Of a stretch of 64,000 nt of DNA, positions 7,192 to 62,554 are shown piece by piece. The stretch comes from Aliiroseovarius crassostreae (GTDB lineage: Bacteria > Pseudomonadota > Alphaproteobacteria > Rhodobacterales > Rhodobacteraceae). The notes below the pieces were generated by a model. It did no database searches and had not been told where the DNA came from. It saw nothing but the letters and a program-made list of their open reading frames with translations. The position numbers and the translations under genes were made by a program. The stretch lies in NCBI RefSeq assembly GCF_001307765.1, contig NZ_LKBA01000008.1, forward strand, positions 1-64,000, in the 5' to 3' direction. Numbering within the stretch: the first letter of the stretch is position 1; every line of letters starts with the position of its first letter.

Positions 7192-7220
7192 GAGTTATCT
7201 TTTGTTTTGATAGTTAACTT
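7192..7220. promoter_or_regulatory. Plasmid-wide 29-bp operator, site 1
   Basis: GAGTTAT-N15-TTAACTT with core CTTTTGTTTTGATAG. It lies 20 bp before the DUF3299 gene start. It shares exact half-site spacing and the TTGTTT core with the other sites. Confidence 0.7.
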
Positions 7221-7240
7221 TATCATGCTGAGGATATGCC

Positions 7241-7804
7241 ATGTCGCCCAAACACCCTTTCCTATCCCGTCGATCCACGCTGCTCATGGGTATGAGCGGT
7301 GCGCTGCTGCCCACTGTCGCGAGTGCAGACAAGCCCGCCGCATTGACCATCCCTAAAGATGAGGTGAAGCCCGACGGGCCTCCTGCCTTGTCCTGGGAAG
7401 ATCTCATTCCTCCGGGCACCCCTTATTCGGAGATCATTGCAGAAGGCGAAATCGACCGCGTGAATGATCGCTGGAAGCCAGTATTCGACGAACATGGCAC
7501 CAAGCTGAACCACAAGTTTGACGGGCAGACCGTGCAGATCTCGGGCTTCATCGTCCCCTTTGGGGTTACCAAGGGTGGCGTCCGCGAATTTCTCCTGGCA
7601 CCGCGCCAGTCAGTCTGTTCTCATGTCGCCCCGCCCCCGCCTAACCAGATCGTCCTGGCATCGTCTGAAGAGCCGATTCCGAGCAACCTTCTCTGGGCAG
7701 CCGTTCGTATGACGGGAACGCTCAAGGCCGAACCCCTGTCCACCTCGATCGCAGAAGTCGGCTACCAGCTATCAGTTGACCAGGCCGAAATGTTCTTCGG
7801 GTAA
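7241..7804 (+). CDS. DUF3299 family exported protein
   Basis: The 187-residue protein begins with a twin-arginine-like signal (SRRSTLLMGMSG) and a cleavage region near ASA at residue 29. The mature part shows the DUF3299 hallmark: VQISGFIVPFG, then VREFLLAPRQSVCSHVAPPPPNQIV, followed by WAAVRMTGTL. The family is periplasmic or membrane-associated, often near ABC-type envelope transporters, with a conserved Cys and His that may bind metal. GAGGA precedes the ATG at good spacing. The operator at 7192-7220 is directly upstream, so it is probably co-regulated with the transfer genes. Confidence 0.8.
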   Translation: MSPKHPFLSRRSTLLMGMSGALLPTVASADKPAALTIPKDEVKPDGPPALSWEDLIPPGTPYSEIIAEGEIDRVNDRWKPVFDEHGTKLNHKFDGQTVQISGFIVPFGVTKGGVREFLLAPRQSVCSHVAPPPPNQIVLASSEEPIPSNLLWAAVRMTGTLKAEPLSTSIAEVGYQLSVDQAEMFFG

Positions 7805-7808
7805 AACG

Positions 7809-8771
7809 CTATCCCGCCGCTTGGTGGGTCTCCACGTCTGACATTGAAAACAACTCGCCTATTCTTGCCACCACTCCATTCCGGATCTCCGGAACTTCAG
7901 AAAATACATCGTGCCTGGCGTTTGGTATCATCTCCAACCTTCCGCCAGGCCACCGCGACATACGATCTCGAACTGCCGAGATCTCGACCACCTCATCTTG
8001 CTCACCGCAGAAAGTGATGCACGGTATCTCTGGAGATGCCACTTTCGACAGTGCCTTGGTCTCTTTGAGCGTTTGAAACAGCCATCCCAGACTAGGACCA
8101 CCGATCTGATGATCGGTCAGTGTCGTCGCCTGCCTAATGTAGTATTCATACATCTCCGCGTCGTTTGTCAGGCGGTTTGCCTCGTAGGGCGTGCTGAGAA
8201 CGTAGCTGGTGCCATCGGTGCCCGGAGCATAGATATGCCCCTTCCCAAGCGTCTGAGCTGCCCATGACAACGGCCATGCCGCCGCTCGCTTCACAGCAGG
8301 CAGCTTGATGTTCCACATCGGGCCGGTGAAAGCACAAGCCGACATTGGGAAGCCGTCAATCAATGCACGCAGACCGATACAAGCGCCAAGCGAATGCCCA
8401 ATCAGATACCACGGCTTCGGCAGGCTCAGCTCCTCTGCGGCTTCGATCATCGCCGCGACATCCTTGTGATAGTCAGAAAACCGATCCACATGACCTGTCA
8501 TAGCGTCCGTTGTGGATCTATCGGCGAGGCCCTGGCCGCGCCAATCAATCAAGAACGTGCCGAAGCCTAACTTGCTCAGCTCTGTGATAGTGCGGCCGTA
8601 TTTTTCGATGTATTCCGAGCGACCCGGAAATACGAAAACTGTGCCCTTTTGCGGGCTGTCAGGTTTCCACAAACCCACCCGAAGACGAACCCGGTCTTTG
8701 GCGTAAACCCAATAGGCCGACCCGCCTTCAGGGGCCTCTGCAATTTCAGGGTAAAGTGGTGCTTGGTCCAT
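7809..8771 (-). CDS. Alpha/beta hydrolase, lysophospholipase-like
   Basis: This 320-residue serine hydrolase of the Hydrolase_4/PldB type has the nucleophile elbow GHSLG near residue 126, the acid in GEQDEVV near residue 258 and the histidine in NARHDVF near residue 286. The early motif FPGRSEYIEKYGRTI and DWRGQGLADR fit lysophospholipase L2-like enzymes. There is no signal peptide, so it is cytoplasmic or peripheral. It starts 3 bases after the stop of the HTH-like/multi-TM gene at 8775, forming a two-gene module that recurs at 18.8-21.4 kb with an unrelated-looking hydrolase. Substrate unknown; a lysophospholipid or acyl ester is inferred. Confidence 0.8.
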   Translation of the reverse strand: MDQAPLYPEIAEAPEGGSAYWVYAKDRVRLRVGLWKPDSPQKGTVFVFPGRSEYIEKYGRTITELSKLGFGTFLIDWRGQGLADRSTTDAMTGHVDRFSDYHKDVAAMIEAAEELSLPKPWYLIGHSLGACIGLRALIDGFPMSACAFTGPMWNIKLPAVKRAAAWPLSWAAQTLGKGHIYAPGTDGTSYVLSTPYEANRLTNDAEMYEYYIRQATTLTDHQIGGPSLGWLFQTLKETKALSKVASPEIPCITFCGEQDEVVEISAVRDRMSRWPGGRLEMIPNARHDVFSEVPEIRNGVVARIGELFSMSDVETHQAAG

Positions 8772-8774
8772 TAT

Positions 8775-11822: not shown

Positions 11823-11851
11823 AAGTTAATTTGCAATTTGATTTTTAACGC
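11823..11851. promoter_or_regulatory. Plasmid-wide 29-bp operator, site 2
   Basis: AAGTTAA-N15-TTAACGC with a degenerate core (TTTGCAATTTGATTT). It lies between the divergent genes starting at 11799 (-) and 11873 (+), so it may serve both. Confidence 0.6.
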
Positions 11852-13088: not shown

Positions 13089-13117
13089 TAGTTATATATC
13101 GTTTCTATAATTAACTT
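13089..13117. promoter_or_regulatory. Plasmid-wide 29-bp operator, site 3
   Basis: TAGTTAT-N15-TTAACTT with core ATATCGTTTCTATAA, upstream of the leftward PmtA-like gene. Confidence 0.7.
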
Positions 13118-13955: not shown

Positions 13956-13984
13956 ACGTAAATCTTCAAATCACCTACTAACTC
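13956..13984. promoter_or_regulatory. Plasmid-wide 29-bp operator, site 4
   Basis: ACGTAAA-N15-CTAACTC has the correct spacing, with 5 of 7 matches in each half. It is upstream of the leftward lipoprotein operon. Confidence 0.5.
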
Positions 13985-15816: not shown

Positions 15817-15845
15817 AAGTTAATATTCATTTTGACATTTAACAC
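15817..15845. promoter_or_regulatory. Plasmid-wide 29-bp operator, site 5
   Basis: AAGTTAA-N15-TTAACAC with core TATTCATTTTGACAT, 47 bp before the PH-domain gene at 15893. Confidence 0.7.
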
Positions 15846-17450: not shown

Positions 17451-17479
17451 AAGTCAATTATTGTTTTGACTATTAACTT
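17451..17479. promoter_or_regulatory. Plasmid-wide 29-bp operator, site 6
   Basis: AAGTCAA-N15-TTAACTT with core TTATTGTTTTGACTA, between the leftward NYN-plsC operon and the rightward FadL-like gene (17634). Confidence 0.75.
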
Positions 17480-17633
17480 TAGGATAGCCGCGAGACGCGC
17501 GGAAATATTGATCTTGGCAAAGATGCCGCCCACCCGGCTAGATTGATAGCCACATAGGGTTCAGGCCTTCTACTCACCCGAGAAATCGTGTTAACACCTG
17601 ATTTACAAATTAACGTGGTGAAAGTGAACAAGT

Positions 17634-24392: not shown

Positions 24393-24421
24393 AGGTAAAT
24401 AGTTAAATCTATTAGTTACTT
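24393..24421. promoter_or_regulatory. Plasmid-wide 29-bp operator, site 7 (weak)
   Basis: AGGTAAA-N15-GTTACTT keeps the spacing but matches only 5 of 7 in each half. It lies 50 bp upstream of the topoisomerase gene and overlaps the end of the MlaC-like gene. Confidence 0.35.
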
Positions 24422-27291: not shown

Positions 27292-27320
27292 GAGTTAATG
27301 TCTAAAACAATTTATAACAT
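27292..27320. promoter_or_regulatory. Plasmid-wide 29-bp operator, site 8
   Basis: GAGTTAA-N15-ATAACAT. Read on the minus strand the core is AAATTGTTTTAGACA. It lies between the divergent M23 operon (-) and the gene at 27356 (+). Confidence 0.65.
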
Positions 27321-28760: not shown

Positions 28761-29081
28761 ATGACAATCGAAGACGTATTATCCAAGATGAAGGCTGAAG
28801 ACACTGGCGATATGTGGCAGGGTCGCGCGATCAACTTGCTCGAAGCGCTGGTCGAGACTGACATCGACTTAGCCCAAACGAACGATGACCTATTGAACAG
28901 CATGGAAGCTGGGCGTGAAAACCACCCACAAATCGACCTGTTTCTTTCAAACCTACCTGGATACCCAAACAATCGGGAGCACGCTCTGGAAATGCTTGGA
29001 TACCTAACCATGCAGCTTCATGCAGCTGCCGGTCAGAGGGCAAATTCCAGCGTCGATAAAGGAAAATCAGGTGTCGTCTGA
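28761..29081 (+). CDS. Small protein resembling a segment of the plasmid's own coupling protein
   Basis: The 106-residue protein aligns with the middle of the DotL-like coupling protein encoded at 33646-36039. DMWQGRAINLLEAL matches DMWAGRAISFMEAI, FLSNLPGYPNN matches YLENIPSYALSK, and EMLGYLTMQLHAAA matches EQHGYITMQLVRAV, in the same order with shorter spacers. It lacks both nucleotide-binding motifs and any membrane segment. It may be a remnant, or a free-standing module that binds a coupling-protein partner and so blocks transfer (entry exclusion or fertility inhibition is inference). Confidence 0.6.
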   Translation: MTIEDVLSKMKAEDTGDMWQGRAINLLEALVETDIDLAQTNDDLLNSMEAGRENHPQIDLFLSNLPGYPNNREHALEMLGYLTMQLHAAAGQRANSSVDKGKSGVV

Positions 29082-29188
29082 TTTCGCTCTACCCCAAGCA
29101 AACGAGGCGTTCGCGCCGTAACCAACGGAACGGTTTCTTCCTTTTTTCAAAAGCCAAAAGAAGATAACAGCTTTGGTAAAGCCACAAA

Positions 29189-29212
29189 CCAGACTTCCAG
29201 CGAAGAGTCTGG
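29189..29212 (+). promoter_or_regulatory. Hairpin in the leader of the 29234 gene
   Basis: CCAGACT (29189-29195) and AGTCTGG (29206-29212) can pair in the untranslated leader 22 bases before the ATG. No T-run follows. It could affect translation of the small gene downstream. Confidence 0.3.
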
Positions 29213-29233
29213 CTCCAACAAAGGTGCAGACAA

Positions 29234-29458
29234 ATGCAGAAATTTATGCCGTTCAAAGCCGACCCGCCAAATGGCCCGCATGAAGCCGCTTTTCGGCGTG
29301 GCTACCATCACGGCGCGGTAGCTATGATAGAAGCGATGAAAGAGGGTGTTTCGGTCGAAGAACTTGAGGGCTTTGTTAACGCCGAGTTGCGTGCATGGCG
29401 CGAAGATCACGCCGTTCCAGCCTTTCCACCGGAGCCGGGCAAAAGCAATCGAGTTTGA
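29234..29458 (+). CDS. Small hypothetical protein
   Basis: This 74-residue protein contains a helical hydrophobic-to-acidic segment (RRGYHHGAVAMIEAMKEGVSVEELEGFVNAELRAWRED, described here as a single helix bundle). GAGCC-type context makes the start fairly weak. No family is known. The following gene begins 18 bases later. Confidence 0.5.
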   Translation: MQKFMPFKADPPNGPHEAAFRRGYHHGAVAMIEAMKEGVSVEELEGFVNAELRAWREDHAVPAFPPEPGKSNRV

Positions 29459-29476
29459 ACTCAAGAAGGGTGTCGA

Positions 29477-29836
29477 ATGATGACTGTTGGTGCCGCTAGA
29501 CTTGCAACCCTATCAGAGGCCGCAGACTTGGTTTTGAAGGGTGGTGGCATTTTGGCAATCGCGAGCGTTGTCGGATCAACTGCCTTCAAGTTTGCGGCTT
29601 GGAATCTAACATCCTTGATAATTTTTGTTCCTATGTTGTCCTCGGCCTTCTTATTATGGGCTTTCGCGGGTTTTTTGTTGATGTTGGCGTCTTTGAAACT
29701 GGAAGACGCCTTTCAGTTTGGTCAATCTTTACCTGCAGCAGCGCCTACTATTTTGGGATATACTCTCGCCACCTTAATTGTATTCTCAATGGGCGGGCTC
29801 CTTATTGATCTGGCGGCGGGAGTAATGCGGCAATGA
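29477..29836 (+). CDS. Small membrane protein
   Basis: The 119-residue product has three hydrophobic stretches (GILAIASVVGSTAF, SLIIFVPMLSSAFLLWAFAGFLLMLA and LGYTLATLIVFSMGGLLIDLAAG), consistent with an inner-membrane protein. GAAGGGTGTCG precedes the ATG. No family assigned. It may form a pair with the 29234 gene. Confidence 0.55.
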   Translation: MMTVGAARLATLSEAADLVLKGGGILAIASVVGSTAFKFAAWNLTSLIIFVPMLSSAFLLWAFAGFLLMLASLKLEDAFQFGQSLPAAAPTILGYTLATLIVFSMGGLLIDLAAGVMRQ

Positions 29837-29858
29837 ATGGCACAAGTATAGACCAACA

Positions 29859-30671
29859 ATGATCATGAATTACCGCAGCACCGCCCGCACCCATTGCCAG
29901 ACCGCCAAAGCACTCCTATCGAGCGGCACAGACGACGACGTGTTACTTGCCGCGCTGAAGCTGCGCATGGCCTTGGAAAGCATCACCTACGATAGATCCA
30001 AAGGCTTTGCTGAAGATCTGGGGCCCGAGGCCATGAAGACGTGGCAACCCAAGAAGCTCATGGAACGTATGCTGGAAGTCGATCCACAAGCCGATGCTGA
30101 CGCAACGCTGTCCTTTGGCGAAGAACCGTCGCTCGGCGAAACGCCAGAAACCATGCAGCTCCTCGGCACAGATCACGTCTTGAACCTGCGGACGCTGAAG
30201 AAGCACTATGACGCCCTCGGCTCATACCTTCATACGCCGACACTCGCCCAGATCGAGCAAGGCAAAGTCCACGATTTTGCGAGGCTTAGCCAGCGGTGTT
30301 CCAAGATCATCGACGCCCTTGACGCCGCTCTGGGCTCCAAGGTCTGGAATTCCACCTTCGCAACACGAGGCGTTATGGATTGCAGCGAGTGCGGGTCAAC
30401 CATTCGACGCCGCTTGCCAAAGAGCATGGCCGAGCGCGTGGTCCAATGCTGGTCATGCCCAGCCAGTTACACAATGACCGAGATCGAAGACCAAAAGGTG
30501 CGCTTTGAGCCACGACAGGTCCGGGCCACATGCCCTAAACCGGATTGCGGCGATGAATCCTATATCTGGGAGCGTAATGTCGAACGGGGAAACTCGTGGC
30601 CCTGCGACGGTTGTGGCTCAAAGCTGATGTTCGCACTCGGAGTTGCCGTCGCGCCTAGCGACAAACCGTAA
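29859..30671 (+). CDS. Hypothetical protein with C-terminal zinc ribbons
   Basis: The 270-residue product has a helical N-terminal half (KALLSSGTDDDVLLAALKLRMALESITYDR), similar in feel to HEPN-like or abortive-infection-associated proteins. A C-terminal part carries three CxxC-type pairs (DCSECGST, QCWSCPAS, ATCPKPDC with PCDGCGSK), giving probably two zinc ribbons. It may bind nucleic acid. It is the gene just left of the Abi/small-RNA locus. Exact family unknown. Confidence 0.6.
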   Translation: MIMNYRSTARTHCQTAKALLSSGTDDDVLLAALKLRMALESITYDRSKGFAEDLGPEAMKTWQPKKLMERMLEVDPQADADATLSFGEEPSLGETPETMQLLGTDHVLNLRTLKKHYDALGSYLHTPTLAQIEQGKVHDFARLSQRCSKIIDALDAALGSKVWNSTFATRGVMDCSECGSTIRRRLPKSMAERVVQCWSCPASYTMTEIEDQKVRFEPRQVRATCPKPDCGDESYIWERNVERGNSWPCDGCGSKLMFALGVAVAPSDKP

Positions 30672-30730
30672 AGACCAGCCACTGATTTGTCCGCCGTAGA
30701 ATATCCAGCGAATTTGCTATAGCTATGCCC

Positions 30731-30810
30731 AAAAAAGCGAAAACCCGCGAGGACCGATGAAGGCTGTCGCGGGCATCTAAGAGGTTGAAGACCTAAAGCT
30801 GTCTTCGATT
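30731..30810 (-). ncRNA. Candidate small RNA 1 beside the Abi/HEPN gene
   Basis: A minus-strand promoter has TTGACA (30846-30841), an 18-bp spacer and TATATT (30822-30817). The spacer contains the dyad GGGTG-GAAAT-CACCC. The predicted RNA of about 80 nt has hairpin 1 GAAGAC/GTCTTC (30806-30787) and hairpin 2 CCCGCGA/TCGCGGG (30773-30744), then TTTTCGCTTTTTT. No coding gene fits. Its divergent placement next to an AbiF-like gene suggests an RNA partner, because AbiF-family toxins are known to have structured RNA neighbours. Confidence 0.6.
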
Positions 30811-30853
30811 GATGTGAATATAGGGTGATTTCCACCCGAATGTCAAGAAAAAC

Positions 30854-30863
30854 GGTCTAGACC
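30854..30863. promoter_or_regulatory. Perfect palindrome GGTCTAGACC upstream of the Abi gene
   Basis: This 10-bp palindrome lies 30 bp before the Abi-like start and just outside the small-RNA promoter. It is a candidate operator for a toxin or regulator. Confidence 0.35.
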
Positions 30864-30892
30864 CATTAAGGACCGAGCGGAGCAGTAAGGCA

Positions 30893-31507
30893 TTGGTTGT
30901 AAATATAATTTCTCAGGAGCGCCTGACAAAGTACCTTAGAGAGGCTGGTCACGATCAGCAGCGGGCACTGGCGCTTTATGGATGGAACATCCAACTGAGC
31001 GAAGCATTTTTCCCGGTTCTGAGCGCTTCTGAGGTCTGCCTTCGCAATACCATCTGCACACAATTAATCGCCCTGTATGGCCAAACGTGGTGGGATGACC
31101 CAGCTTTTCTCCTTCAGATCAAGAAGAATGGCACGCGGATTGTAAAGACAGCCCGTGACAAACTCAGAACCCGTGGTCCTGTCACCTCGGGCGGAATGAC
31201 AGCTGAACTCAACTTCGGGTTTTGGGTCAACATGCTCCTACCAAGACACGAACCTGTGTTTTGGCAGAACCTGAATGCTGCCTTCCCAGATCTGCCACCG
31301 GCAGTCACCTACGCCGCCCTCTACAAGAGATGCGATGATGTCCGTGAGTTTCGGAACCGGATTTTCCACCATGAGCCGATCATGCACCGCAACATCACCA
31401 AAGAATACAGTCAGATCATGGAACTCATCGGTTGGCTGAGCCCAGATAAGGCTAAGTGGATCAAGCCATATTCTCGGGTGATGACAGTGGCACGACAAAA
31501 GCCTTAG
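30893..31507 (+). CDS. Abi_2/AbiF-like HEPN protein
   Basis: The 204-residue protein appears to start with TTG (30893), after an AGTAAGG element. There is no ATG in the first two thirds of the frame. It shows the Abi_2/AbiD-F pattern: LSASEVCLRNTICTQL, FGFWVNMLLPRHEPVFW, and VREFRNRIFHHEPI near residue 154. The R-N-x4-H arrangement is the HEPN ribonuclease signature. Such proteins abort phage infection or act as toxins by cutting RNA. The divergent small RNA is the probable antitoxin or regulator. Length is slightly short for Abi_2 (usually 250-320 residues). Confidence 0.75.
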   Translation: MVVNIISQERLTKYLREAGHDQQRALALYGWNIQLSEAFFPVLSASEVCLRNTICTQLIALYGQTWWDDPAFLLQIKKNGTRIVKTARDKLRTRGPVTSGGMTAELNFGFWVNMLLPRHEPVFWQNLNAAFPDLPPAVTYAALYKRCDDVREFRNRIFHHEPIMHRNITKEYSQIMELIGWLSPDKAKWIKPYSRVMTVARQKP

Positions 31508-31534
31508 AACGCCAGCGCGACGAATCAAGCATCC

Positions 31535-32545
31535 TCAGAAGCTCCAGTTACACGTTTCGGCCAACTCCCCTAGCACCCCGCGCAGCCCAGATATATCAAA
31601 GATCGCGGTGTTTGGGTTCTCACCATAGGGAATGATCTGAAGAACAAGCCTGTCTTCGTCTAGGAGTTCCTTCAGGAGGTTTCCGGCCCAGCTGGGGGCA
31701 AAGGTGGCGTTGCGGTCTGTGGACACACCCCACCGCTCTTCTCTCGCCTGCCCCGCGCCGATCCGGACGGTGACGCGCTTCCACTCCGAATACACATCGT
31801 TGGAATCGTCACCGAGAAAGTCGCCCCAGACGACATAGGCCTCCGTCGTATTGGATTTGCACCGGGCGATGAACGTGACGGGATCTCCGGAACGCGAAGT
31901 GCCGGTCTCGGCCGCAAGCGACAGTGTGATCGTCTGGGTATCGTCGATCGGGTTAGTGGCCGTCCGCACACGCCATGCGCCCGTTCCAGCGCTTTCGTTC
32001 ATCGATGTGACCGGCTCAGCTGGCACGGCCGTCTCGTCGATCACCGCGCCGATCTCATAGGTGAACGTCCCACACAGACCTGGACTGTTGATGTCAAACG
32101 GCGGCTCCACCGACTGGAAGACCGCCATTGTCAGCGTCGGATCGCCGCCAAAACGGCTTTGCTGATAGAAGACGACATAGAGCGGTTCTGGATTTCCACC
32201 ACCGCAGAGCATGTTCCCATTCTGCAAAGAACCAGGATTCTCAGAAAGCCGAAACACCTCGGCAGTCTGCTTGCCCTGCCCGCCAACATCCCACGTCCGC
32301 CAGGATGCACCCTCGGAAGTCAGATCCACGGCAGCGCCGCTCTCAAAGGTCAGGCCCATCGAACTGCCTTCAGTTGCAAACTCTGGATTACCCGACAGCG
32401 CAATCTCACCCGTGATAGCACTGGCCGTCCGGCTAATCGGCGCAAACGACCCCGCCTCCTGCCAGACATGCCGCTCGATCGCTGATTGAGAGTAAGCTGG
32501 CGTAGACAGAATTACGATCGAAAGGAGTAGAGGGCTTAGATTCAT
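31535..32545 (-). CDS. Periplasmic protein with C-terminal VasI-like domain
   Basis: Start at MNLSPLLLS (32545) is chosen because it begins a signal peptide (cleaved after AYS near residue 19). The 336-residue protein has an N-terminal beta-rich half of unknown type. Its C-terminal half resembles the VasI family of type VI secretion-associated proteins: ITLSLAAETG, FIARCKSNTTEAYVVWGDFLG, RVTVRIGAGQAREERWGVSTDRNATF, ending GELAETCNWSF. No T6SS genes are near, so it is probably a stand-alone periplasmic protein. The longer frame reaches 32596. Confidence 0.6.
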   Translation of the reverse strand: MNLSPLLLSIVILSTPAYSQSAIERHVWQEAGSFAPISRTASAITGEIALSGNPEFATEGSSMGLTFESGAAVDLTSEGASWRTWDVGGQGKQTAEVFRLSENPGSLQNGNMLCGGGNPEPLYVVFYQQSRFGGDPTLTMAVFQSVEPPFDINSPGLCGTFTYEIGAVIDETAVPAEPVTSMNESAGTGAWRVRTATNPIDDTQTITLSLAAETGTSRSGDPVTFIARCKSNTTEAYVVWGDFLGDDSNDVYSEWKRVTVRIGAGQAREERWGVSTDRNATFAPSWAGNLLKELLDEDRLVLQIIPYGENPNTAIFDISGLRGVLGELAETCNWSF

Positions 32546-32735
32546 AGGACGTTCCACAGGTGTCGATAAGACAGGTTGCGAGATCACAGGTATCAAAGGA
32601 AAATATCACTGTCGAAAGAGGAAAAGTCCATGTCGCAAGCAGTGTCGCATATGCCAGTAATTTATGGTCGCACATATGAGGTCAAAGGAACGGTCTCGTG
32701 ACGTTTCACAAAATTCTCGTGAGGCAAGCTAACTG

Positions 32736-33113
32736 GTGACCTGGCTCGCGCTTCTCCTAACATCCGCCATTGCCGGTATGCTCTACTACAAAATCAAAGT
32801 TCGCCCTCGGCGGGTGCGAATCTCGTTTTATGTGGGCGTTATCCAGCTTGGACTTGGATCTCTTTCCGCCCTGGCGACTACAATAGCGCCCATCTCTCCG
32901 ATCAGCTGCGTAATTGGTGGGGTTGGCGTGTACATCAACCCGATCATCACCCTGATCGATGTCGTCATGCTCTTGTCGGTCATACCTACCAAACTCAGAG
33001 CGAACGATCGGCTTCAGATCCTGATCTACGTTGCCTTCATCGTCGCGCGGATCGCGCTGCACATCATGGCGGGTGCTGTACACTATTGGGCGTTCAGCTA
33101 CTGCACTATCTGA
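32736..33113 (+). CDS. Small multi-TM hypothetical protein
   Basis: The 125-residue product starts with GTG and has three or four hydrophobic helices (WLALLLTSAIAGMLYYKI, FYVGVIQLGLGSLSAL, LIDVVMLLSVIP and ILIYVAFIVARIALHIMAG). No strong ribosome-binding site is visible, so the start is uncertain. No family assigned. It converges on the leftward gene at 33172 with a terminator between. Confidence 0.5.
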   Translation: MTWLALLLTSAIAGMLYYKIKVRPRRVRISFYVGVIQLGLGSLSALATTIAPISPISCVIGGVGVYINPIITLIDVVMLLSVIPTKLRANDRLQILIYVAFIVARIALHIMAGAVHYWAFSYCTI

Positions 33114-33127
33114 TCCATTTAGAAACG

Positions 33128-33149
33128 AAAAAGGGCCCCAGCGGGGCCC
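33128..33149 (-). terminator. Rho-independent terminator for the transfer operon tail
   Basis: Arms GGGCCCC (33133-33139) and GGGGCCC (33143-33149) are followed on the minus strand by T5 (33132-33128). It is the end point of the leftward gene at 33172. Confidence 0.8.
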
Positions 33150-33171
33150 AATTCCGTGTTTGTATAAATCT

Positions 33172-33567
33172 TCAGCTAGCGCCGTATTTGAAGCGGTTGT
33201 GCTTCGAAACCGGGCGACCAGTCATCGGGTCGATGATGTAGCCAGTTTCGGTCGCGGCGCTGCGAACCATTTCTTCCATCTCTTCGACGCTCAGAAATGC
33301 AGGGCGAGCCTTGCCTTCTTTCTTGGTGGGCAGTTCACCACGCACGGGAACTTCGAAAAGATCGCCTTTGCGGTCGATGGCCCAACCATAGAACGACAGA
33401 CGGGCATTCAGCTTCGAGAGCGCCATATGCGCGCCCGCTTTCGCCAGAAGACCCTTCACGCCGCCCTCAGGATAGATCTCCGCGAGTTTGGCCTGGGCAT
33501 ACGCCTGAAGGACGTTGAACTCTGCCGAACCGCGAGCTACTTTGCCTTGCTTCAGTTTGTCGATCAT
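33172..33567 (-). CDS. Hypothetical protein after the coupling protein gene
   Basis: This 131-residue soluble protein has a very strong AAAGGAGG element before its ATG. It starts MIDKLKQGKVARGSAEFNVLQAYAQAKLAEIYPEGGVKG (described as helix plus loop). It continues with LSFYGWAIDRKGDLFEVPVRG and ends YIIDPMTGRPVSKHNRFKYG. No family assigned. The strong translation signal suggests an abundant product, perhaps a structural or DNA-binding protein. It lies 78 bases after the coupling protein gene, so it may be in the same operon or have its own promoter. Confidence 0.7.
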   Translation of the reverse strand: MIDKLKQGKVARGSAEFNVLQAYAQAKLAEIYPEGGVKGLLAKAGAHMALSKLNARLSFYGWAIDRKGDLFEVPVRGELPTKKEGKARPAFLSVEEMEEMVRSAATETGYIIDPMTGRPVSKHNRFKYGAS

Positions 33568-33645
33568 AGCGTCCTCCTTTCATGTCATTGCGCTTTGTCT
33601 CAATACTCATATAAGCATTCTTAGGTTAATTTTCAACCCTACCCT

Positions 33646-36039
33646 TTACAAAACCCCCACCGCCTTACGGGCGTTCTCTGCCACGGCATCAACTTCTGCG
33701 GGTTTGGCCGGCAACTCTTGGCTAAGGTCATCCAAAATGTCGCGAGCTGCATCTCGCACATCATTAGATCCGAGGTTTGCAAGAAGCGGATCAGCAACTT
33801 TGCCCACGATTTCTGTTCTGGACGCGAACTCACTGGCACGGCGATTCTTTTCCCGCTGCTCAACCGTGTCCTGGACGAATTGCGCGATGTCCTCACGCTG
33901 CAATTTGCCCTTGGCAATCTTCCGAAGCATCAGGCCGATCATATCGTTCTCAACCTTTTCGAAGAGCTCGTATGCTTCAGAACCCTCTGTCCCGACCTCA
34001 GCCAGCGTGCGTGTGACCCCTGCCCTAGCTTCAGTACGAACAATTTCACGTTGACGGATATTAGGTCCATCAGCAGGTGTCAGCGGCTTTACCCCGACAA
34101 AGGGATTTCTCCGCCACTCCTCGACGCTGGGAATCGAGCCCGTGTAGAATGCGAGCATTCGAACAATGCGCGCGCCACCTGTCTCTCGGCCGTGTCGATC
34201 GAGCGTCTTTGAGCCCGTCACCATGTGGAACTGACCATTCTCTTGCTCAACAAGGTCATCGTATTCAATTTGGGCCACCTCCTGCAGGGATGAGCCCTTT
34301 TGGACCCTCAGACCTGAAGCAAAGGCATCCTTCTGGTATTCCATCTCGTTAGCGACTTGGACATGTGCCTTGCCCCCGATCTGGATCGCGGCGCGGGCAG
34401 TATCCGAGTCCTCGGACGACACCAAGCGCCCGAACCACTTTACAGCCGTGTTATCGAGAATGGCCTTTCCTTCGGCCTCCGAGCCTTTCATCAACGACGA
34501 AATATCCTGAGTTCCGAAATACACAGCAACTCCCAATGAACGCGCCTGCGCCGGGATCACCGAGAGGCCCTTCACGATGTAATAACCAACCTCATCAAGC
34601 ACAGCGCCGAACGGTATCTTCGAGTTCGACGGGCTCGCGTCAATGATCTCACGCTTGGACCCTTCGGACTCGGTATTGAGCAAGGAACCCAAGGCTGACT
34701 TCAGTGACAGAATTGTCAGCTTGCCAAGCTGCTCAAGGTTTTCAGGCGATTTTTCCAGTGATGGGAGCAGAACAACAAGACTACGGCGGTTGAGTACAAC
34801 ATCTTCAAACGAAATCTCGGAAAGCTCATTGTTGTAGATATAGCCGTAGTTGAAGGATAAGTTTACCACCGCACGAACGAGCTGCATTGTGATGTATCCG
34901 TGTTGCTCTTCGACCTTCTGACGGCTCTGATCGTTCGGATCTTCCTTATCAGGAATATCGCTGTATTTCGCCTCAAGGTTTGCATAGACATCTGCGCCCA
35001 TGCGGATGTGCTTCACGACTTTCTCAGGCTTCGACAACGCATAGGACGGGATGTTTTCCAGATACCGCCTCAGAGCTACCAACCTCTTTGTCAGAGCCGT
35101 CCAGTCCTCCGGGTGGTCTTTCTGCAGATCGACAAATCGGCCGTGCATGTCTTCAATCACGCCGAACCAGGCTAAGTTTTCCAGATTGGTCAGCAGGAAA
35201 TAGTCCGCAAGCAAAGACGGGTTCAACAGGATGTGGCCACGCTCTGCCAGGAACGCCAATGGTGGCATAATTGCTTCCATGAACGAGATGGCCCGGCCAG
35301 CCCACATATCGGCACCGTCTCCGGTGTCCATCAGGGAAACCATTGTTTCACTCATCTGGGCCGATCCGCCAAACCCAAGCGGATTGTACCCGTGGCTTCG
35401 GCGGTGCTTTTGTGGGCCCTGAATATCTCGACCACCGGTAAGATAGTCAGTGACGAACAGATCCTCGTCTCTCCCTAGCAGGCGGGAGATCTTATAAAGA
35501 GAGTCGAACGTGTTTACCGATGCCTTCCCGTCAACCAGCAGCACACCGGAACCCAATGCAAGCAAGCAAAAGGCTTGCCCCATAATGTTCTCGGTTTTGC
35601 CCGAACCTGTGGTCCCGATCATCAGCGCGTGCTTGTTCACGTCGTTGCTGCTCATCCAAACTTGCTGCCCGGTTTCTTGATCCATGCCTGCAAAAATGTT
35701 TGCCGCAGCCGGTTTCGATGTCGAAGCATCAATGACCTTGTGACCCATCAGGCCATTAATCCTTTGAGGCAGCCTGAAGGCTCCCTCCCACTTCTTCGAC
35801 TTCAACCGATAGCACCGGAAAAATACCACCAGCGCCGCCACAAAGATGATCTCGGGAATGAAGGGCGCCCATGAGAACAACAGACAGGCTATTCCGAGCG
35901 TCCCGAAAACCTTGAAGGTTCCCTCGGCTGTAGAACAGCTGTCTTCCATGCGCTGCCAGAAGGTCCGCACGTCATCACGACGCGCCTGGATGTTTACCTT
36001 CTGACCTCGCTTGACGCCTTTGACGACCTTCTGCGACAT
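33646..36039 (-). CDS. dotL: Type IVB coupling protein, DotL/IcmO (TrbC) family
   Basis: The 797-residue ATPase has an N-terminal membrane hairpin (FGTLGIACLLFSWAPFIPEIIFVAALVVFF, two helices), then FtsK/VirD4-type motor motifs: Walker A GTTGSGKT near residue 142, VLLVDGKAS, and Walker B-like FGAVLDEVGYY near residue 480. The all-alpha insertion contains DMWAGRAISFMEAI, HGYITMQL and the C-terminal helical tail used by DotL to bind adaptors. It recruits the relaxosome and substrates to the secretion channel at the inner membrane. Size matches DotL (about 780). It is the last gene of a ten-gene operon (33646-43954). Confidence 0.85.
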   Translation of the reverse strand: MSQKVVKGVKRGQKVNIQARRDDVRTFWQRMEDSCSTAEGTFKVFGTLGIACLLFSWAPFIPEIIFVAALVVFFRCYRLKSKKWEGAFRLPQRINGLMGHKVIDASTSKPAAANIFAGMDQETGQQVWMSSNDVNKHALMIGTTGSGKTENIMGQAFCLLALGSGVLLVDGKASVNTFDSLYKISRLLGRDEDLFVTDYLTGGRDIQGPQKHRRSHGYNPLGFGGSAQMSETMVSLMDTGDGADMWAGRAISFMEAIMPPLAFLAERGHILLNPSLLADYFLLTNLENLAWFGVIEDMHGRFVDLQKDHPEDWTALTKRLVALRRYLENIPSYALSKPEKVVKHIRMGADVYANLEAKYSDIPDKEDPNDQSRQKVEEQHGYITMQLVRAVVNLSFNYGYIYNNELSEISFEDVVLNRRSLVVLLPSLEKSPENLEQLGKLTILSLKSALGSLLNTESEGSKREIIDASPSNSKIPFGAVLDEVGYYIVKGLSVIPAQARSLGVAVYFGTQDISSLMKGSEAEGKAILDNTAVKWFGRLVSSEDSDTARAAIQIGGKAHVQVANEMEYQKDAFASGLRVQKGSSLQEVAQIEYDDLVEQENGQFHMVTGSKTLDRHGRETGGARIVRMLAFYTGSIPSVEEWRRNPFVGVKPLTPADGPNIRQREIVRTEARAGVTRTLAEVGTEGSEAYELFEKVENDMIGLMLRKIAKGKLQREDIAQFVQDTVEQREKNRRASEFASRTEIVGKVADPLLANLGSNDVRDAARDILDDLSQELPAKPAEVDAVAENARKAVGVL

Positions 36040-43965: not shown

Positions 43966-43994
43966 ATGTGAATAGTAGTTTCAATATTTAACTT
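43966..43994. promoter_or_regulatory. Plasmid-wide 29-bp operator, site 9
   Basis: ATGTGAA-N15-TTAACTT with core TAGTAGTTTCAATAT. It sits directly before the first gene of the dotA-dotL operon, overlapping the probable promoter. Confidence 0.65.
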
Positions 43995-45063: not shown

Positions 45064-45194
45064 TTCTCTCTCCTCATGGAGAGCGATCAAGCAGACACAA
45101 AAACACCGTTCGGTGGCCAAGAAAGCATTGACCTCCGGTCTGCCGGTGACTATGTTCGGAGTTGACAAATAACTGCAGCCGAACACGGTATGTG

Positions 45195-45230
45195 AAAAAG
45201 CCCATGGTAGCGCCAACTACCGGGGCTTTT
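45195..45230 (-). terminator. Rho-independent terminator upstream of the initiator gene
   Basis: Long arms AAAAAGCCC/GGGCTTTT flank inner arms GGTAG/CTACC. The minus-strand run is TTTTT. It lies between the giant gene (ends 45356) and the initiator gene (starts 45063), so it either ends the giant-gene transcript or attenuates the initiator gene. Confidence 0.75.
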
Positions 45231-45327
45231 GCTTTTCTCGCTCTAGGTCATTGTTGAACCTTCTTCTTGTTTTCCATTCAGGCACTGCGAAAGTGCCCAC
45301 TCTAGCGATAGAGCAGACTGCACAGTA
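45195..45327 (-). promoter_or_regulatory. Candidate attenuator leader or small RNA
   Basis: Downstream of the operator at 45328-45356, the minus strand has a hairpin GGCACT/AGTGCC (45297-45281), a nine-codon open frame MENKKKVQQ and the strong terminator at 45195-45230. This is either a leader that attenuates the initiator gene or a short RNA. TTGACT (45333-45328) could be the -35 element, with a poor -10. Confidence 0.4.
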
Positions 45328-45356
45328 AAGTCAATTTTAGAAACAACCCTTAACAT
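45328..45356. promoter_or_regulatory. Plasmid-wide 29-bp operator, site 10
   Basis: AAGTCAA-N15-TTAACAT. Read on the minus strand the core is GGGTTGTTTCTAAAA. It abuts the stop of the giant gene and precedes the leader of the initiator gene. Confidence 0.7.
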
Positions 45357-52930: not shown

Positions 52931-52959
52931 AAGTTAAAAGTAGAAACAAAAACTAACTG
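52931..52959. promoter_or_regulatory. Plasmid-wide 29-bp operator, site 11
   Basis: AAGTTAA-N15-CTAACTG. Read on the minus strand the core is TTTTTGTTTCTACTT. It lies 52 bp before the 51638-52879 gene. Confidence 0.75.
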
Positions 52960-53074: not shown

Positions 53075-53094
53075 TGCTAACACCAGTGCTAACA
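53075..53094 (+). repeat. Iteron dimer beside the array
   Basis: TGCTAACACCAGTGCTAACA has two units at 12-bp spacing, unlike the 24-bp spacing of the main array. Near-identical or degenerate copies lie at 5742, 55847 and 55963. Confidence 0.7.
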
Positions 53095-53131
53095 TGAAAG
53101 TGTGACGGTGGATGAATCGTGGTGGTGGCAA

Positions 53132-53370
53132 TGCTAACACATAGGTGTGAGCAGATACTAACAGTGCGGTGTGACAAAATGCTAACAGGACCATGTGAGT
53201 AAGTGCTAACATGGTGGTGTGACAAGTGCTAACACGACTATGTGGCGAAATGCTAACAGGCAGGTGTGAGAGTAGCTAACATAAAGGTGTGGCGAAATGC
53301 TAACAGGCGTATGTTAGAGATTGCTAACAGGACGGTGATAGCGTATGCTCACACAAAAGTGTGACAAGAG
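53132..53370 (+). repeat. Iteron array: replication origin
   Basis: The 8-mer TGCTAACA (or one-base variants) starts at 53132, 53156, 53180, 53204, 53227, 53251, 53274, 53298, 53322 and 53346: ten units with a 23-24 bp period, each followed by a GTGTG-type element. This is a classical iteron origin, in register with two helical turns, directly upstream of parA. The 52880-53380 gap holds this array, a dimer and an operator. No gene is needed to explain it. Confidence 0.85.
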
Positions 53371-55987: not shown

Positions 55988-56015
55988 TTGACACGCGGAA
56001 TTCGTAAAGTATAAG
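55988..56015 (+). promoter_or_regulatory. Near-consensus promoter of the right transfer operon
   Basis: TTGACA (55988-55993), a 16-bp spacer and TATAAG (56010-56015) form a good housekeeping-type promoter. The operator at 56007-56035 overlaps its -10 element and start site, as expected for repression. Confidence 0.75.
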
Positions 56016-56035
56016 GTAGAAACAACCTTTAACTT
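56007..56035. promoter_or_regulatory. Plasmid-wide 29-bp operator, site 12
   Basis: AAGTATA-N15-TTAACTT. Read on the minus strand the core is AGGTTGTTTCTACCT. It overlaps the -10 element of the right transfer operon. Confidence 0.75.
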
Positions 56036-56040: not shown

Positions 56041-56262
56041 ATGATCACCATGCACAAGCTATCTCGGGTAACATTCCTCATCCTCGCCGCTGGCTCCCTT
56101 GCCGCGTGCGCTGGCAACTACAACCCCCATCGCCCTGGCGACCTCGTGAATACGGACACCTTTGTTTCGAATGTTCTTGAGGAGCACGGTGTGATCCGTC
56201 GCCAGAACACGAAGCCCATTCCTGGCACCAGCACTGACGAAGAAGAAGTGCCAACAAGCTAA
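56041..56262 (+). CDS. Small transfer lipoprotein
   Basis: The 73-residue protein has a lipoprotein signal with lipobox LAAC near residue 22 from the Met at 56050 (that Met is a likely alternative start). The short mature part (AGNYNPHRPGDLVNTDTFVSNVLEEHG) is polar and acidic. As the first gene of an operon with DotC and DotB homologues, it takes the place of DotD/TraH but is much shorter. It would be anchored in the outer membrane. Confidence 0.65.
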   Translation: MITMHKLSRVTFLILAAGSLAACAGNYNPHRPGDLVNTDTFVSNVLEEHGVIRRQNTKPIPGTSTDEEEVPTS

Positions 56263-56277
56263 GCGAAGGGCGTCCCA

Positions 56278-56556
56278 ATGATAGGACAAAAAGGCGTCAT
56301 AATTCTGTGGTCGGCGATCATTGGAACCCTCTGGGTGTCTACCGTGATTTGCGTGCTGGTCATCAGAAGTGAGGCCAATGCGCTCATCGAACGGGCGCGT
56401 TTAACTGACCCCAGCATTACGGAACACACTGCGCTCATCTCAGGAAACGGAGGGTTGGGGAAGTTCCTTCTGATCCGTCTCGACGGACCAGTGACAGAGG
56501 TGTTCGAGAGGTGCCCAGGGCTGATCGAAAATGCCATCTGCATGAGGCTGAAATGA
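56278..56556 (+). CDS. Small membrane protein of the transfer operon
   Basis: This 92-residue protein has one N-terminal membrane helix (GVIILWSAIIGTLWVSTVICVLVI) and a C-terminal region with FLLIRLDGPVTEVFERC and ENAICMRLK, each with a cysteine. GAAGGG precedes the ATG. Position suggests a transfer component, but no homologue is clear. It overlaps the next gene by 4 bases. Confidence 0.6.
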   Translation: MIGQKGVIILWSAIIGTLWVSTVICVLVIRSEANALIERARLTDPSITEHTALISGNGGLGKFLLIRLDGPVTEVFERCPGLIENAICMRLK

Positions 56557-59906: not shown

Positions 59907-59932
59907 CTGCCAGTCGCTGAGGAGAACACACT

Positions 59933-60493: not shown

Positions 60494-60504
60494 GGAGGCT
60501 TTAC

Positions 60505-60771
60505 ATGAACAATGAATACCACACGATGTCGGATGTTGACTGGCGCTGGTCCAGTCAAAGGGTCAAGGTGTTTGGCCTCGATCCGACGGTCTTGCTCGTT
60601 TTTCCCGTCTTGATCCTGTCGGGGATCAGCACTCTTTCGATGGTGTTTTGCGCGTTATGGGTGGCCTTTCTCGTCTATATTGCAGTCCGGACAAAACATG
60701 GTTCTGTTGTTGGGTTCCTGGCTGAAAGCCGCACACGTTATTTTCAGAGGAACAAATGGGAAGTTCTTTAA
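60505..60771 (+). CDS. icmT: IcmT/TraK-like small membrane protein
   Basis: ATG at 60505 with GAGGAGGC upstream gives an 88-residue protein. It has the IcmT pattern: DWRWSSQRVKVFGLDPTVLLVFPVLIL, then a second membrane segment LSMVFCALWVAFLVYIAVRTKHG, ending with AESRTRYFQRNKW. IcmT/TraK is needed for pore formation and egress in type IVB systems. It overlaps the next gene by 16 bases. The longer frame upstream overlaps the peptidase gene and is rejected. Confidence 0.8.
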   Translation: MNNEYHTMSDVDWRWSSQRVKVFGLDPTVLLVFPVLILSGISTLSMVFCALWVAFLVYIAVRTKHGSVVGFLAESRTRYFQRNKWEVL

Positions 60772-61313
60772 CCCAGACCGACCACTTGGTTGAGCTGACC
60801 GGTCGCGCGGTCAGCCTGATGACCGTTAGGCACTTTCGGAGTGAGGCCAGCGTAACGATGTTCCGGGCAACATTGGCACGGGAATTTGTCCGGCCAACCG
60901 CTGCACAATCACTGACGGCAAATGATCGATTTCGGAGGACCATTTTTCCGTTCAAGGTGGAAGGGGATCGGATTCAGGATGCAGTCAACCCGATTTGGAG
61001 CAACCCGGCATTCATCTTGCCTGCGGTTGCTTCCTTGGCCTGGCTGTTTGACGCGATCCTGTCTCCATCGCGCCACGCCACATTCCGGCCGGTTGTCGAG
61101 CCCAGCGCGGACGCCCTGTACAAGAAGAGGCTGACAGGAATTGAAACAGGTGATCGATTTAGCGAGGCACGTTTCAACATCATGATTTCGGGAGCAGCAA
61201 AGGCCTATCTTGGGGAGCCTGATTTTTTGACCCTTTCACGATGGGCTCTCGCAAGTCTCAACTCAGAGGGTTCCGCGCCTTCTCTCGATCGGATGGTTAG
61301 GGATGCTGGGTGA
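60756..61313 (+). CDS. Transfer-operon protein (TraL position)
   Basis: This 185-residue soluble protein has no diagnostic motif. It is mainly helical (FRATLAREFVRPTAAQSL, NPAFILPAVASLAWLFDAIL) and starts in the middle of the IcmT gene end. Its position after icmT corresponds to traL of IncI plasmids, but similarity to TraL cannot be confirmed by eye. It overlaps the next gene by 11 bases. Confidence 0.55.
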   Translation: MGSSLTQTDHLVELTGRAVSLMTVRHFRSEASVTMFRATLAREFVRPTAAQSLTANDRFRRTIFPFKVEGDRIQDAVNPIWSNPAFILPAVASLAWLFDAILSPSRHATFRPVVEPSADALYKKRLTGIETGDRFSEARFNIMISGAAKAYLGEPDFLTLSRWALASLNSEGSAPSLDRMVRDAG

Positions 61314-61629
61314 CAAACATGGCGACCGTCTTTTGCAGATGTACTCGGAGCGCGTTTGTGTAGCTGAACCTACTGTACAGAAATCGCCCATGATCGGGCA
61401 CAATAGGCCCCCCAAAGACGTTAAAAAAAAGGGGCCTCAAGCAAGTAAGCTGTTCGGTTTGAAAGCGGCTTGGCTGCGATTTGCAAAAGAGAGAGAGTTG
61501 GCGCGTCTGGCAAAGCTGCATGTACGCATTGAACTGAAAGAACGGGCGCTTAAGGATCTGCGCGCAGAGCGCACCATGATCATGAACCGCTGTATTCGGC
61601 GTATGAGGCGATCAGCTGGAAAGGACTGA
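61303..61629 (+). CDS. Small basic protein, end of operon
   Basis: This 108-residue, very basic helical protein (LKAAWLRFAKERELARLAKLHVRIELKERALKDLRAERT, shown only as character) overlaps the preceding gene by 11 bases and has a TAGG element upstream. It may be a nucleic-acid-binding or scaffold protein. It is the last gene of the right transfer operon that starts at 56041. Confidence 0.5.
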   Translation: MLGDKHGDRLLQMYSERVCVAEPTVQKSPMIGHNRPPKDVKKKGPQASKLFGLKAAWLRFAKERELARLAKLHVRIELKERALKDLRAERTMIMNRCIRRMRRSAGKD

Positions 61630-61699
61630 CGCCCGTTCACGACTTGTCACCAAGTCCGACCTAACGATAAGACATCTCGTCAAAGTGTAGATTAATAAC

Positions 61700-61716
61700 T
61701 AACTATCTGGTAGTTA
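61700..61716. repeat. Small perfect inverted repeat TAACTA-TCTGG-TAGTTA
   Basis: The 6-bp arms lie in the 159-base gap before the gene at 61789, and AGTGTA...TACACT lies outside. It may be an operator or part of the promoter of the 61789 gene. It does not match the 29-bp motif. Confidence 0.4.
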
Positions 61717-61788
61717 CACTGTGTTTATTCACACGCTGTAATCGCTAGGGGCACCAGGTGGGCTCCGAAAGGTCGGATCGAGGAACCA

Positions 61789-62463
61789 ATGAGAGAAATG
61801 AGATATGGGGTAACAACCCGTGTTTTGGACAACATAGACGATACCAGGGTACAAAAACTCCTGAACCGTTACGGCATCGATCCTGACCAAGAAGACAGTG
61901 AAATCAAAGAGGCTTTGACCTCTCTTCCCGAAGACGAGTTCAACCGACTTGGTGAGGATTTTCGCCGGACTACGGAATCTGACCTCATTGCCGAGATTTC
62001 GCTCAAGATCGAGGATAAGGCGAAAGCTCTTTGGGACCGTCAGATACGAGATCTCGACGACAGGTCTGCGACTCTTCGCAACAAGACGATTCCCGACGCC
62101 CTAGCGCTTTACGACAAGGGTGATCGACCTGCGTTCGAAGAGGCCTTGAAAGACATCGATGCTGAATCGGTTTCGATCGTGACTGATGTTCATCAGCAGC
62201 GGCTTAATGTCCGAGAGGAGCTTCGCCGGTATGCGCTCGAAATCTCGCCTCACCTCTCACGCCCAGAGCGCAATCAGATCGTGAATGAGAAGGCGAGCGC
62301 CGAAGATCTGGCGAACACTGCCTTGTATACGCCGCCCTCGTCTCAACAGCAGGCGCGTGCAGTCGCGGAGCTAAAGCGCAACATCAATCGCCGAGATTTG
62401 GAAAGCGACCAGGATATCGATCTGCAGATGGCTGCGAGACGGTCTCACGACCCCAGACCGTAG
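61789..62463 (+). CDS. Hypothetical protein
   Basis: This 224-residue soluble, charged, largely helical protein has no family I recognise. Long amphipathic stretches (LIAEISLKIEDKAKALWDRQIRDLDDRSATLRNK, character only) suggest a coiled coil, and the C-terminus is polar. It has its own upstream region and ends just before the double operator at 62473-62554. Confidence 0.55.
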   Translation: MREMRYGVTTRVLDNIDDTRVQKLLNRYGIDPDQEDSEIKEALTSLPEDEFNRLGEDFRRTTESDLIAEISLKIEDKAKALWDRQIRDLDDRSATLRNKTIPDALALYDKGDRPAFEEALKDIDAESVSIVTDVHQQRLNVREELRRYALEISPHLSRPERNQIVNEKASAEDLANTALYTPPSSQQQARAVAELKRNINRRDLESDQDIDLQMAARRSHDPRP

Positions 62464-62472
62464 CAATTCCTT

Positions 62473-62501
62473 AAGTTAAAAGTTCTTTTGACTTTTAACT
62501 T
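62473..62501. promoter_or_regulatory. Plasmid-wide 29-bp operator, site 13
   Basis: AAGTTAA-N15-TTAACTT, where the symmetry extends to 12-bp arms (TAAGTTAAAAGT/ACTTTTAACTTA). It is the most perfect copy in the window and precedes the dsbC-like gene. Confidence 0.8.
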
Positions 62502-62505
62502 AGCA

Positions 62506-62534
62506 TTGACACTCTGAAGACCCTACAGTTAAAA
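62506..62534 (+). promoter_or_regulatory. Promoter of the dsbC-like operon
   Basis: TTGACA (62506-62511) with a 17-bp spacer and TTAAAA (62529-62534) as -10. It lies between the two operators at 62473 and 62526, the second of which covers the -10 element. Confidence 0.55.
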
Positions 62535-62554
62535 ATGAAACCAGACATTAACTT
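62526..62554. promoter_or_regulatory. Plasmid-wide 29-bp operator, site 14
   Basis: CAGTTAA-N15-TTAACTT. Read on the minus strand the core is TGTCTGGTTTCATTT. It ends 20 bp before the TTG start at 62575. Confidence 0.75.

Follow-up and report, generated by a model that had tools for sequence, protein, structure and literature searches.

The window examined here is the first 64,000 bases of contig NZ_LKBA01000008.1 (C9; 101,234 bp) in the 3.72 Mb genome of Aliiroseovarius crassostreae, and the subject of this report is a 29-bp element, two 7-bp inverted arms around a 15-bp spacer (AAGTTAA-N15-TTAACTT), that recurs along it. Among the type IVB genes of the contig are those for DotA, DotB, DotG, DotH and DotI, for a coupling protein and for a C-terminal domain of DotM. 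A 17-kb query from C9 matched pS26_106 of Phaeobacter piscinae S26 as the sole plasmid record, at 96.5% identity and 94% query cover, and in a whole-contig alignment 4,111 of 99,040 aligned positions were different (~96% identical). With tblastn, 120 of the 127 annotated pS26_106 genes found a match on C9 and 7 were absent; genes are called g000 to g126 below in our own numbering of that annotation, and sites are named by their first base.

Allowing up to three mismatches, the bare motif occurs 13 times in the window against 0.87 expected (standard deviation 0.90, maximum 5, in 100 dinucleotide shuffles), so the comparison with shuffled sequence that a sequence-only reading of this DNA had called for came out in favour of the motif. 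That reading had listed 14 sites, and all of them lie where it placed them, with a 15-bp spacer throughout. Twelve are among the 13 matches, and the other two, 13956 and 24393, have 4 mismatches each. We built a weight matrix from 18 sites, which score 17.2-33.8 in leave-one-out scoring; 13956 and 24393 were excluded from the building and reach 20.7 and 20.8 on it, giving two weak sites where only one had been named. Over the whole of C9 the matrix finds 20 sites scoring at least 20 plus two doubtful ones (72458 at 15.4 and 33623 at 14.4), and the next-best match, reverse readings of sites aside, scores 11.6. The two stay doubtful because scores near 14 also arise without an operator in AT-rich DNA. 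Among 300 column-permuted matrices, matches of at least 20 averaged 0.007 (real matrix 20) and those of at least 14 averaged 0.23, with a maximum of 3 (real matrix 22). Sites absent from the earlier list are 17588 (23.3) and the doubtful 33623 in the window, and 86194, 91379, 91548, 93663, 98494 and the doubtful 72458 beyond it. The motif also emerged from a prior-free count of inverted 4- and 5-mers, in which GTTA-N17-TAAC and GTTAA-N15-TTAAC were the strongest gapped dyads of the plasmid by a wide margin, with 2 of the 15 GTTA-N17-TAAC places being terminal repeats and not sites. In the whole genome the bare pattern has 43 forward matches, and 18 of them are on C9, which is 2.7% of the genome; this argues for a plasmid-borne regulator. 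One motif is found, beyond chance, at many promoters of one replicon.

All 22 places are also occupied in pS26_106. Between the two plasmids only 2 of 638 site bases differ, both in the spacer. The 29-bp intergenic stretches directly beside the sites differ at 42 of 951 bases (p=5e-8 versus the sites), 60-bp flanks at 65 of 1,600 and the remaining intergenic DNA at 639 of 10,614. At 33623, 43966, 45328, 72458 and 86194 the 60-bp flanks are unchanged too, and these five sites therefore add nothing individually to the case for constraint. The low divergence is that of purifying selection, as seen on one pair of plasmids, and judging from the sequences we take the sites to be a genuine, constrained operator spread over the plasmid. 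The expectation that the motif would be kept upstream of orthologous operons is borne out at 22 of 22 places in pS26_106 but not in distant plasmid relatives.

To describe position, we paired 20 sites with the nearest downstream gene, leaving out 62473 and 91548 as outer members of site pairs. The site ends 5-24 bp before the start codon in 13 cases, 47-59 bp in six and 264 bp in one. Random intergenic placements come within 24 bp of a start 12.9% of the time (p=8e-8), and the 5-24 bp class still holds 12 of 20 sites without the unannotated open reading frame (ORF) at 56041 (p=9e-7) and 12 of 18 without the two doubtful sites (p=2e-7). By our reasoning, such a distance leaves room for a Shine-Dalgarno sequence and hardly for a promoter downstream of the site. 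At 56007 and 62526, −10-like hexamers are found 16-18 bp behind TTGACA and put the site over the −10, as the sequence-only reading had proposed, and the position just before start codons agrees with its view of a repressor acting at promoters, which would be repression deduced from placement. Its statement that all sites stand at operon heads is right for most and fails for 24393, which lies between two same-strand genes, and for 45328, 264 bp from its gene.

FlhDC-type activator sites lie upstream of the promoter core. We regard it as unlikely that the sites here are activator boxes of a master transfer activator, like AcaCD on IncC plasmids: 13 of 20 would sit on or behind the promoter, and two would cover the −10. 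Such an activator would account for one motif before many operons and for the type IVB region of an S26 plasmid being induced together, as described in passages of PMC9942592. Recombination or telomere-resolution sites would suit a plasmid with annotated site-specific integrase and protelomerase genes; they are hardly conceivable, since most sites are near gene starts, the core varies among them, in the first kb from the left end only one match reaches 8 or more, at 11.6, and the integrase gene showed no Pfam family.

We grouped genes into transcription units by a same-strand rule with gaps of at most 80 bp and looked for a site within about 300 bp upstream of each head. Of 50 units on C9, 21 have a site, counting divergent units separately and including one that relies on the doubtful 33623. 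The TraI/DotB run escapes the rule, since the ORF with which it begins (56041-56262) is unannotated. Runs headed by a site are g065-DotL, g066, g068 (then SNO), the 73-amino-acid ORF to g078, g080-g089 and M23-topoisomerase, while accessory genes behind sites are DUF3299, g021, g023, g025/hipB, the PH-domain gene, NYN/plsC, the outer membrane protein (OMP) gene, DUF2513/g104, g109, g113 and g120. On C9 no site is near ParA (the nearest is 421 bp away), protelomerase, SSB, ribonucleotide reductase, DnaB or the left gene train, and units g043 to g054 (29234-33113) have none. The site set thus covers transfer and accessory genes without the replication core. The name transfer regulon given by the sequence-only reading suits the main type IVB runs, which have sites at their heads, but is too narrow, as many accessory operons also have sites. 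That every type IVB operon start has one holds for the main runs; g079 and g090 lack a site of their own. The left gene train is indeed without a site in this survey, whereas hipBA, said to have none, has 13956 in its divergent region with g025.

These distributions bear on whether the sites could belong to a scattered centromere or partition system with a second role in gene regulation, as is the case for the ParB-family KorB. In favour are the presence of a ParA gene on the replicon and the double nature of RA3 KorB, which passages of PMC8124265 describe as a ParB-family protein that is also a global regulator. We consider this decidedly improbable: no 29-bp site comes closer to parA than 421 bp, a separate array of ~24-bp repeats unlike the 29-bp site lies upstream of that gene, and the gene after parA shows no Pfam family. 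The KorB arrangement, a ParB-family regulator whose operators include the centromere, is not what we find.

Table 1. Operator sites and an associated ORF in the window, with matrix scores and neighbouring genes
Feature	Position	Strand	Score	Neighbourhood
Operator	7192..7220	+	30.8	DUF3299 gene g016 20 bp downstream
Operator	11823..11851	+	27.4	23 bp before g021 (- strand); 88-amino-acid ORF starts on other side
Operator	13089..13117	+	32.4	g023 (- strand) 15 bp on
Weak operator	13956..13984	-	20.7	g025 (- strand) at 59 bp on one side, hipB (+ strand) at 79 bp on the other
Operator	15817..15845	+	31.4	PH-domain gene g028 47 bp downstream
Operator	17451..17479	+	36.7	NYN-plsC genes (- strand) 52 bp on; paired with 17588
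Operator	17588..17616	+	23.3	OMP gene g031 17 bp downstream
Weak operator	24393..24421	-	20.8	topoisomerase gene (- strand) 49 bp on
Operator	27292..27320	-	29.0	M23 peptidase gene (- strand) at 13 bp on one side, g041 (+ strand) at 35 bp on the other
Doubtful site	33623..33651	-	14.4	g055 55 bp downstream
Operator	43966..43994	+	32.1	g065-DotA-DotL run (- strand) 11 bp on
Operator	45328..45356	-	31.0	g066 264 bp on, terminator-like hairpin in between
Operator	52931..52959	-	34.1	g068 51 bp on, then SNO helicase gene
Operator	56007..56035	-	28.3	5 bp before lipoprotein-like ORF; TTGACA −35, TATAAG −10 overlap
ORF, 73 amino acids	56041..56262	+		lipoprotein-like (by eye), unannotated; directly behind 56007, heads TraI/DotB run
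Operator	62473..62501	+	34.4	perfect arms; paired with 62526
Operator	62526..62554	-	29.9	20 bp before g080, head of DotI/DotH/DotG run

Several features next to these sites are recorded here in their own right. Upstream of parA, at 53087-53364 of the window, are about a dozen ~24-bp repeats of the form TGCTAACA-N5-GTGTGA, likely a partition or origin array. Two unannotated ORFs (56041-56556) head the TraI/DotB run, the first being the lipoprotein-like one of Table 1 and the second, of 92 amino acids, having a membrane helix by eye. On the - strand at 45190-45356, ~140 bases behind site 45328 end in the terminator-like hairpin before g066, and this stretch is possibly a small RNA or a leader. 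Rfam gave nothing at gathering score in the window.

An off-centre TTGTTT core in the spacer had been proposed from the sequence and proved real. Across 20 sites an asymmetric model gained 28.8 bits over a symmetric one in leave-one-out scoring, above every symmetric-model simulation (mean 15.1, standard deviation 4.6, maximum 26.1; 60 simulated sets). When the core is read so that TTGTTT stands on the top strand, it has the direction of the gene in 14 of the 20 pairs and the opposite one in 6 (p=0.12); for the 13 close sites the figures are 8 and 5. There is no fixed core orientation to transcription, and a weak trend is possible. This makes a double-stranded DNA element likelier than an RNA element and argues against a stoperator-like polarity. 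The arms could alternatively be the −35 and −10 boxes of promoters for a dedicated sigma factor, as two boxes 15 bp apart resemble promoter geometry and the sigma-region-4-like g104 has a site 69 bp upstream. We think this very unlikely given the palindromic arms and the lack of a fixed core orientation; g104 matches region 4 and LuxR-type helix-turn-helix (HTH) families only, and a start 7 bp behind the right arm would, we reason, cut off the Shine-Dalgarno sequence at, for example, 7192 and 43966. Three pairs of sites in the same region are spaced 53, 137 and 169 bp, or 5.05, 13.05 and 16.10 turns at 10.5 bp per turn, and such near-whole-turn spacing is, in three cases only, suggestive of cooperative binding on one face of the DNA.

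Expression data published for S26 touch on the same region. Passages of PMC9942592 report that in the S26 tdaB mutant the region OL67_003884-003920, with Icm homologues and on one S26 plasmid, rises systematically in transcriptome and proteome, that the Icm homologues are OL67_002884, 003913, 003915 and 003918, and that the HvrA-like (H-NS-like) OL67_000327 is the most significantly lowered protein. We infer that OL67_002884 is a misprint for 003884; the spacing of 29, 2 and 3 fits DotL, DotI, DotG and DotO if two ORFs missing from the RefSeq table are counted. By gene counting, OL67_003884-003920 would correspond to g056-g090 of pS26_106, a plasmid not named in the consulted parts of PMC9942592. 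The operator set offers a cis-element for the rise of the type IVB region reported there. It is also conceivable that the host HvrA silences the region and that the 29-bp sites have another local role, as the significant lowering of OL67_000327 in a mutant with a type IVB rise (passages of PMC9942592) would suggest. We find this quite unlikely, since H-NS-like binding would not be expected to call for a defined 29-bp motif whose spacing is constant at 15 bp and whose divergence is close to zero. A tentative and minor possibility is that one plasmid regulator, recognising the long palindrome with its asymmetric core and resembling the repressors of phage immunity, would keep a linear conjugative element quiescent by silencing transfer and cargo jointly while sparing its replication and telomere genes, with a release linked to tropodithietic acid, in the manner of a lysogeny-like switch.

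Which protein might read the sites was approached through the plasmid's genes, with domain scans that covered part of them. Candidate g091 has a weak HTH match below the Pfam cut-off (YdaS-like, 8e-4; phrog_8008, 4e-5) and a doubtful site 11 bp upstream. Candidate g103 (DUF2513) does not differ between the two plasmids, and its gene is preceded by a site at a distance of 20 bp; its single-sequence model, with too few relatives, has a predicted local distance difference test (pLDDT) value of 38. The remaining candidates are g104, described above, HipB, with a weak site 79 bp upstream, and g066, which has HTH-like and DnaA_N-like parts, both below cut-off. The idea that g091 is a two-HTH regulator was dropped, as the second HTH, seen by eye, got no support and an AlphaFold2 model was uninformative (pLDDT 41). 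Solved structures gave no useful match for g091, g073 or the gene after parA. We also rejected g094, an XRE gene that is the last of the second type IVB run. Its presumed recognition helix, assigned by eye to the GVKFQQIQKYETG stretch, recurs on two other plasmids, Leisingera unnamed3 and pP13_g, where the motif is missing (best scores 7.6 and 11.2). On the assumption that equal helices read equal sites, g094 is unlikely to be the regulator. As an observation apart, Leisingera unnamed3 (NZ_CP083549.1) has capsid, portal, terminase and tape-measure genes beside RepA/ParB, making it a phage-plasmid, and an unannotated XRE gene at 38056.

Searches for the motif elsewhere found no replicon with such a set beyond C9 and pS26_106. 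It was absent from 150 of the 225.5 kb of Paracoccus TOH p2 (best score 5.1), from a 14 kb Tabrizicola contig (2.8) and from 50 of the 131.5 kb of A. deltaense pEL101-131 (7.4); a scan control, the Paroceanicella plasmid pD4M1D, which has a protelomerase match and is another kind of plasmid, reached 10.1. In the whole of R. oryzihabitans p6 there is no 29-bp set; four matches score 14.1-14.6 between 9.5 and 10.2 kb, none with a complete right arm, and they form two identical pairs in inverted orientation. Gapped-dyad counts aimed at a motif of the relatives' own turned up nothing like the 29-bp set in parts of Paracoccus TOH p2, in R. oryzihabitans p6, in the 50 kb of A. deltaense pEL101-131 or in short type IVB loci. 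In a sample of 394 family genomes, nearly one per genus, 9 had any match to a stricter pattern at up to three mismatches, C9 with at least nine matches and the eight other genomes with one or two each. Seven family genomes with a DotO relative gave, at up to two mismatches, 28 matches against 173 for the reversed control, 18 of the 28 in one genome. Among viral contigs the exact pattern picked 30 stretches with one match each; 29 of the 30 score at least 15, and we rejected them as a regulon since these scores occur at most 3 times per locus, in DNA of 30-38% GC. As far as these sequences tell, the operator thus seems confined to this plasmid lineage, of which two copies are known. No publication on this operator was found among the matches listed in open-licence PubMed Central (PMC), where type IVB operators and repressors were queried only narrowly.

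Taken together, we think it probable, though well short of certain, that the sites are operators of one regulator, most likely a plasmid-encoded repressor, lying over the −10/start region. Such a regulator would read the two 7-bp inverted arms, about two helical turns apart, along with the off-centre core, and would sit over the −10/start region just before the start codon. It would hold down the type IVB transfer operons and many accessory operons, leaving replication, telomere and partition genes outside, and the onset of transfer would lift the repression. What is observed is the sites with their number, constraint and position; that they serve repression by a single, plasmid-encoded regulator which lets go at transfer is what we infer from these.

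Several results weigh against this. Genome-wide, a reversed control pattern has 73 matches versus 43 for the motif, with no motif excess outside C9, and AT-rich phage contigs picked by the exact pattern score up to 21.2. Of the 70 matches of at least 14 made by permuted matrices, 73% are wholly intergenic, so an intergenic position alone is weak evidence. Hexamers like a −35 show a weak excess 14-22 bp upstream of the 19 sites within 60 bp of a gene (p=0.038), and among fourteen window positions tried for the −35 the top mean is at 16-24 bp and windows at 34-45 bp equal 14-22. The conservation rests on a single near-identical plasmid pair, and distant type IVB plasmids with the same gene order lack the motif. 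If our mapping of the S26 data is right, the induced region includes parA, without a nearby site, and the fall of HvrA could be an alternative cause of the induction. Finally, the proteins named above are no more than candidates for the regulator.

The replicon itself belongs to a little-described kind. The pS26_106 record (NZ_CP080277.1) lists a linear topology and encodes a protelomerase, and the inverted sequence common to both ends aligns over 197 bp in C9 and 148 bp in pS26_106. With protelomerase genes and terminal inverted repeats, C9 and NZ_CP080277.1 point to the existence, in Phaeobacter, of a linear plasmid that carries a type IVB system. A block of pS26_106 with IS1380, hydrolase, WGR, catalase and redoxin genes (28979-35260, NZ_CP080277.1) is missing from C9. 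PLSDB types pS26_106 as non-mobilizable despite its type IVB system, and among the domain-scanned genes of C9, a part of the total, no relaxase was recognised. Protelomerase was found in 1 of 390 genomes of the order and the coupling protein in 1 of 21 of the genus, in both cases only this genome, and queries for viral relatives of protelomerase, DotO and DUF2513 confirmed none. Plasmids matching both protelomerase and DotB come from Paracoccus, Shinella, Rhizobium and Agrobacterium, and in Paracoccus TOH p2 (NZ_CP098363.1) much of the order of the type IVB genes is kept, with protein identities of about 23-58%. That plasmid has the lnt-ssb-topoisomerase-protelomerase block twice, as if two linear plasmids had fused, and its record says circular.

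Some known control systems can be set beside this one. A CtrA box is TTAA-N7-TTAA, and it was rejected since the arms here are inverted and 15 bp apart. On IncP plasmids, KorA and KorB are global regulators of the same kind as KorB and KorC of RA3 (IncU). The latter, as presented in passages of PMC8124265, resemble what we propose in being encoded by the plasmid, in acting on operators in front of several backbone operons and in tying transfer to maintenance; the difference is that RA3 KorB is a ParB-family protein, whereas here the plasmid has its own partition array and no operator close to parA. AcaCD of IncC plasmids (passages of PMC10954446) likewise places the conjugation operons of a large plasmid under a single control system, but it is an FlhDC-type activator, while the sites here lie near the start codon as for a repressor. 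The operators and stoperators of L5-like mycobacteriophages (passages of PMC9283540) share with ours a count above 20 on one mobile genome, a location at promoters and in short intergenic spaces, and an asymmetric element; those sites are 13 bp, asymmetric and oriented with transcription, whereas ours are 29 bp with inverted arms, 14 with and 6 against, which is no significant orientation (p=0.12).

The closest likeness in replicon type is with the linear dot/icm plasmids of Rhizobiaceae described in 2025 (PMC13293297), which share protelomerase, dot/icm, ParA, a type I topoisomerase and terminal inverted repeats. To the knowledge of those authors no linear plasmids had previously been identified in Rhizobiaceae, and the passage, incomplete in its wording, also names Alphaproteobacteria as without previously known ones; transfer control is not treated in the passages of PMC13293297 considered. 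The difference from our plasmid, namely no 29-bp set, rests on two other plasmids with protelomerase and DotB, R. oryzihabitans p6 and A. deltaense pEL101-131. Other plasmids and phages are known to have operator regulons of this type, and here one is found on a little-studied kind of replicon, where a set of ~20 sites makes plasmid control testable by providing bait DNA for the regulator and a prediction of which operons move together.

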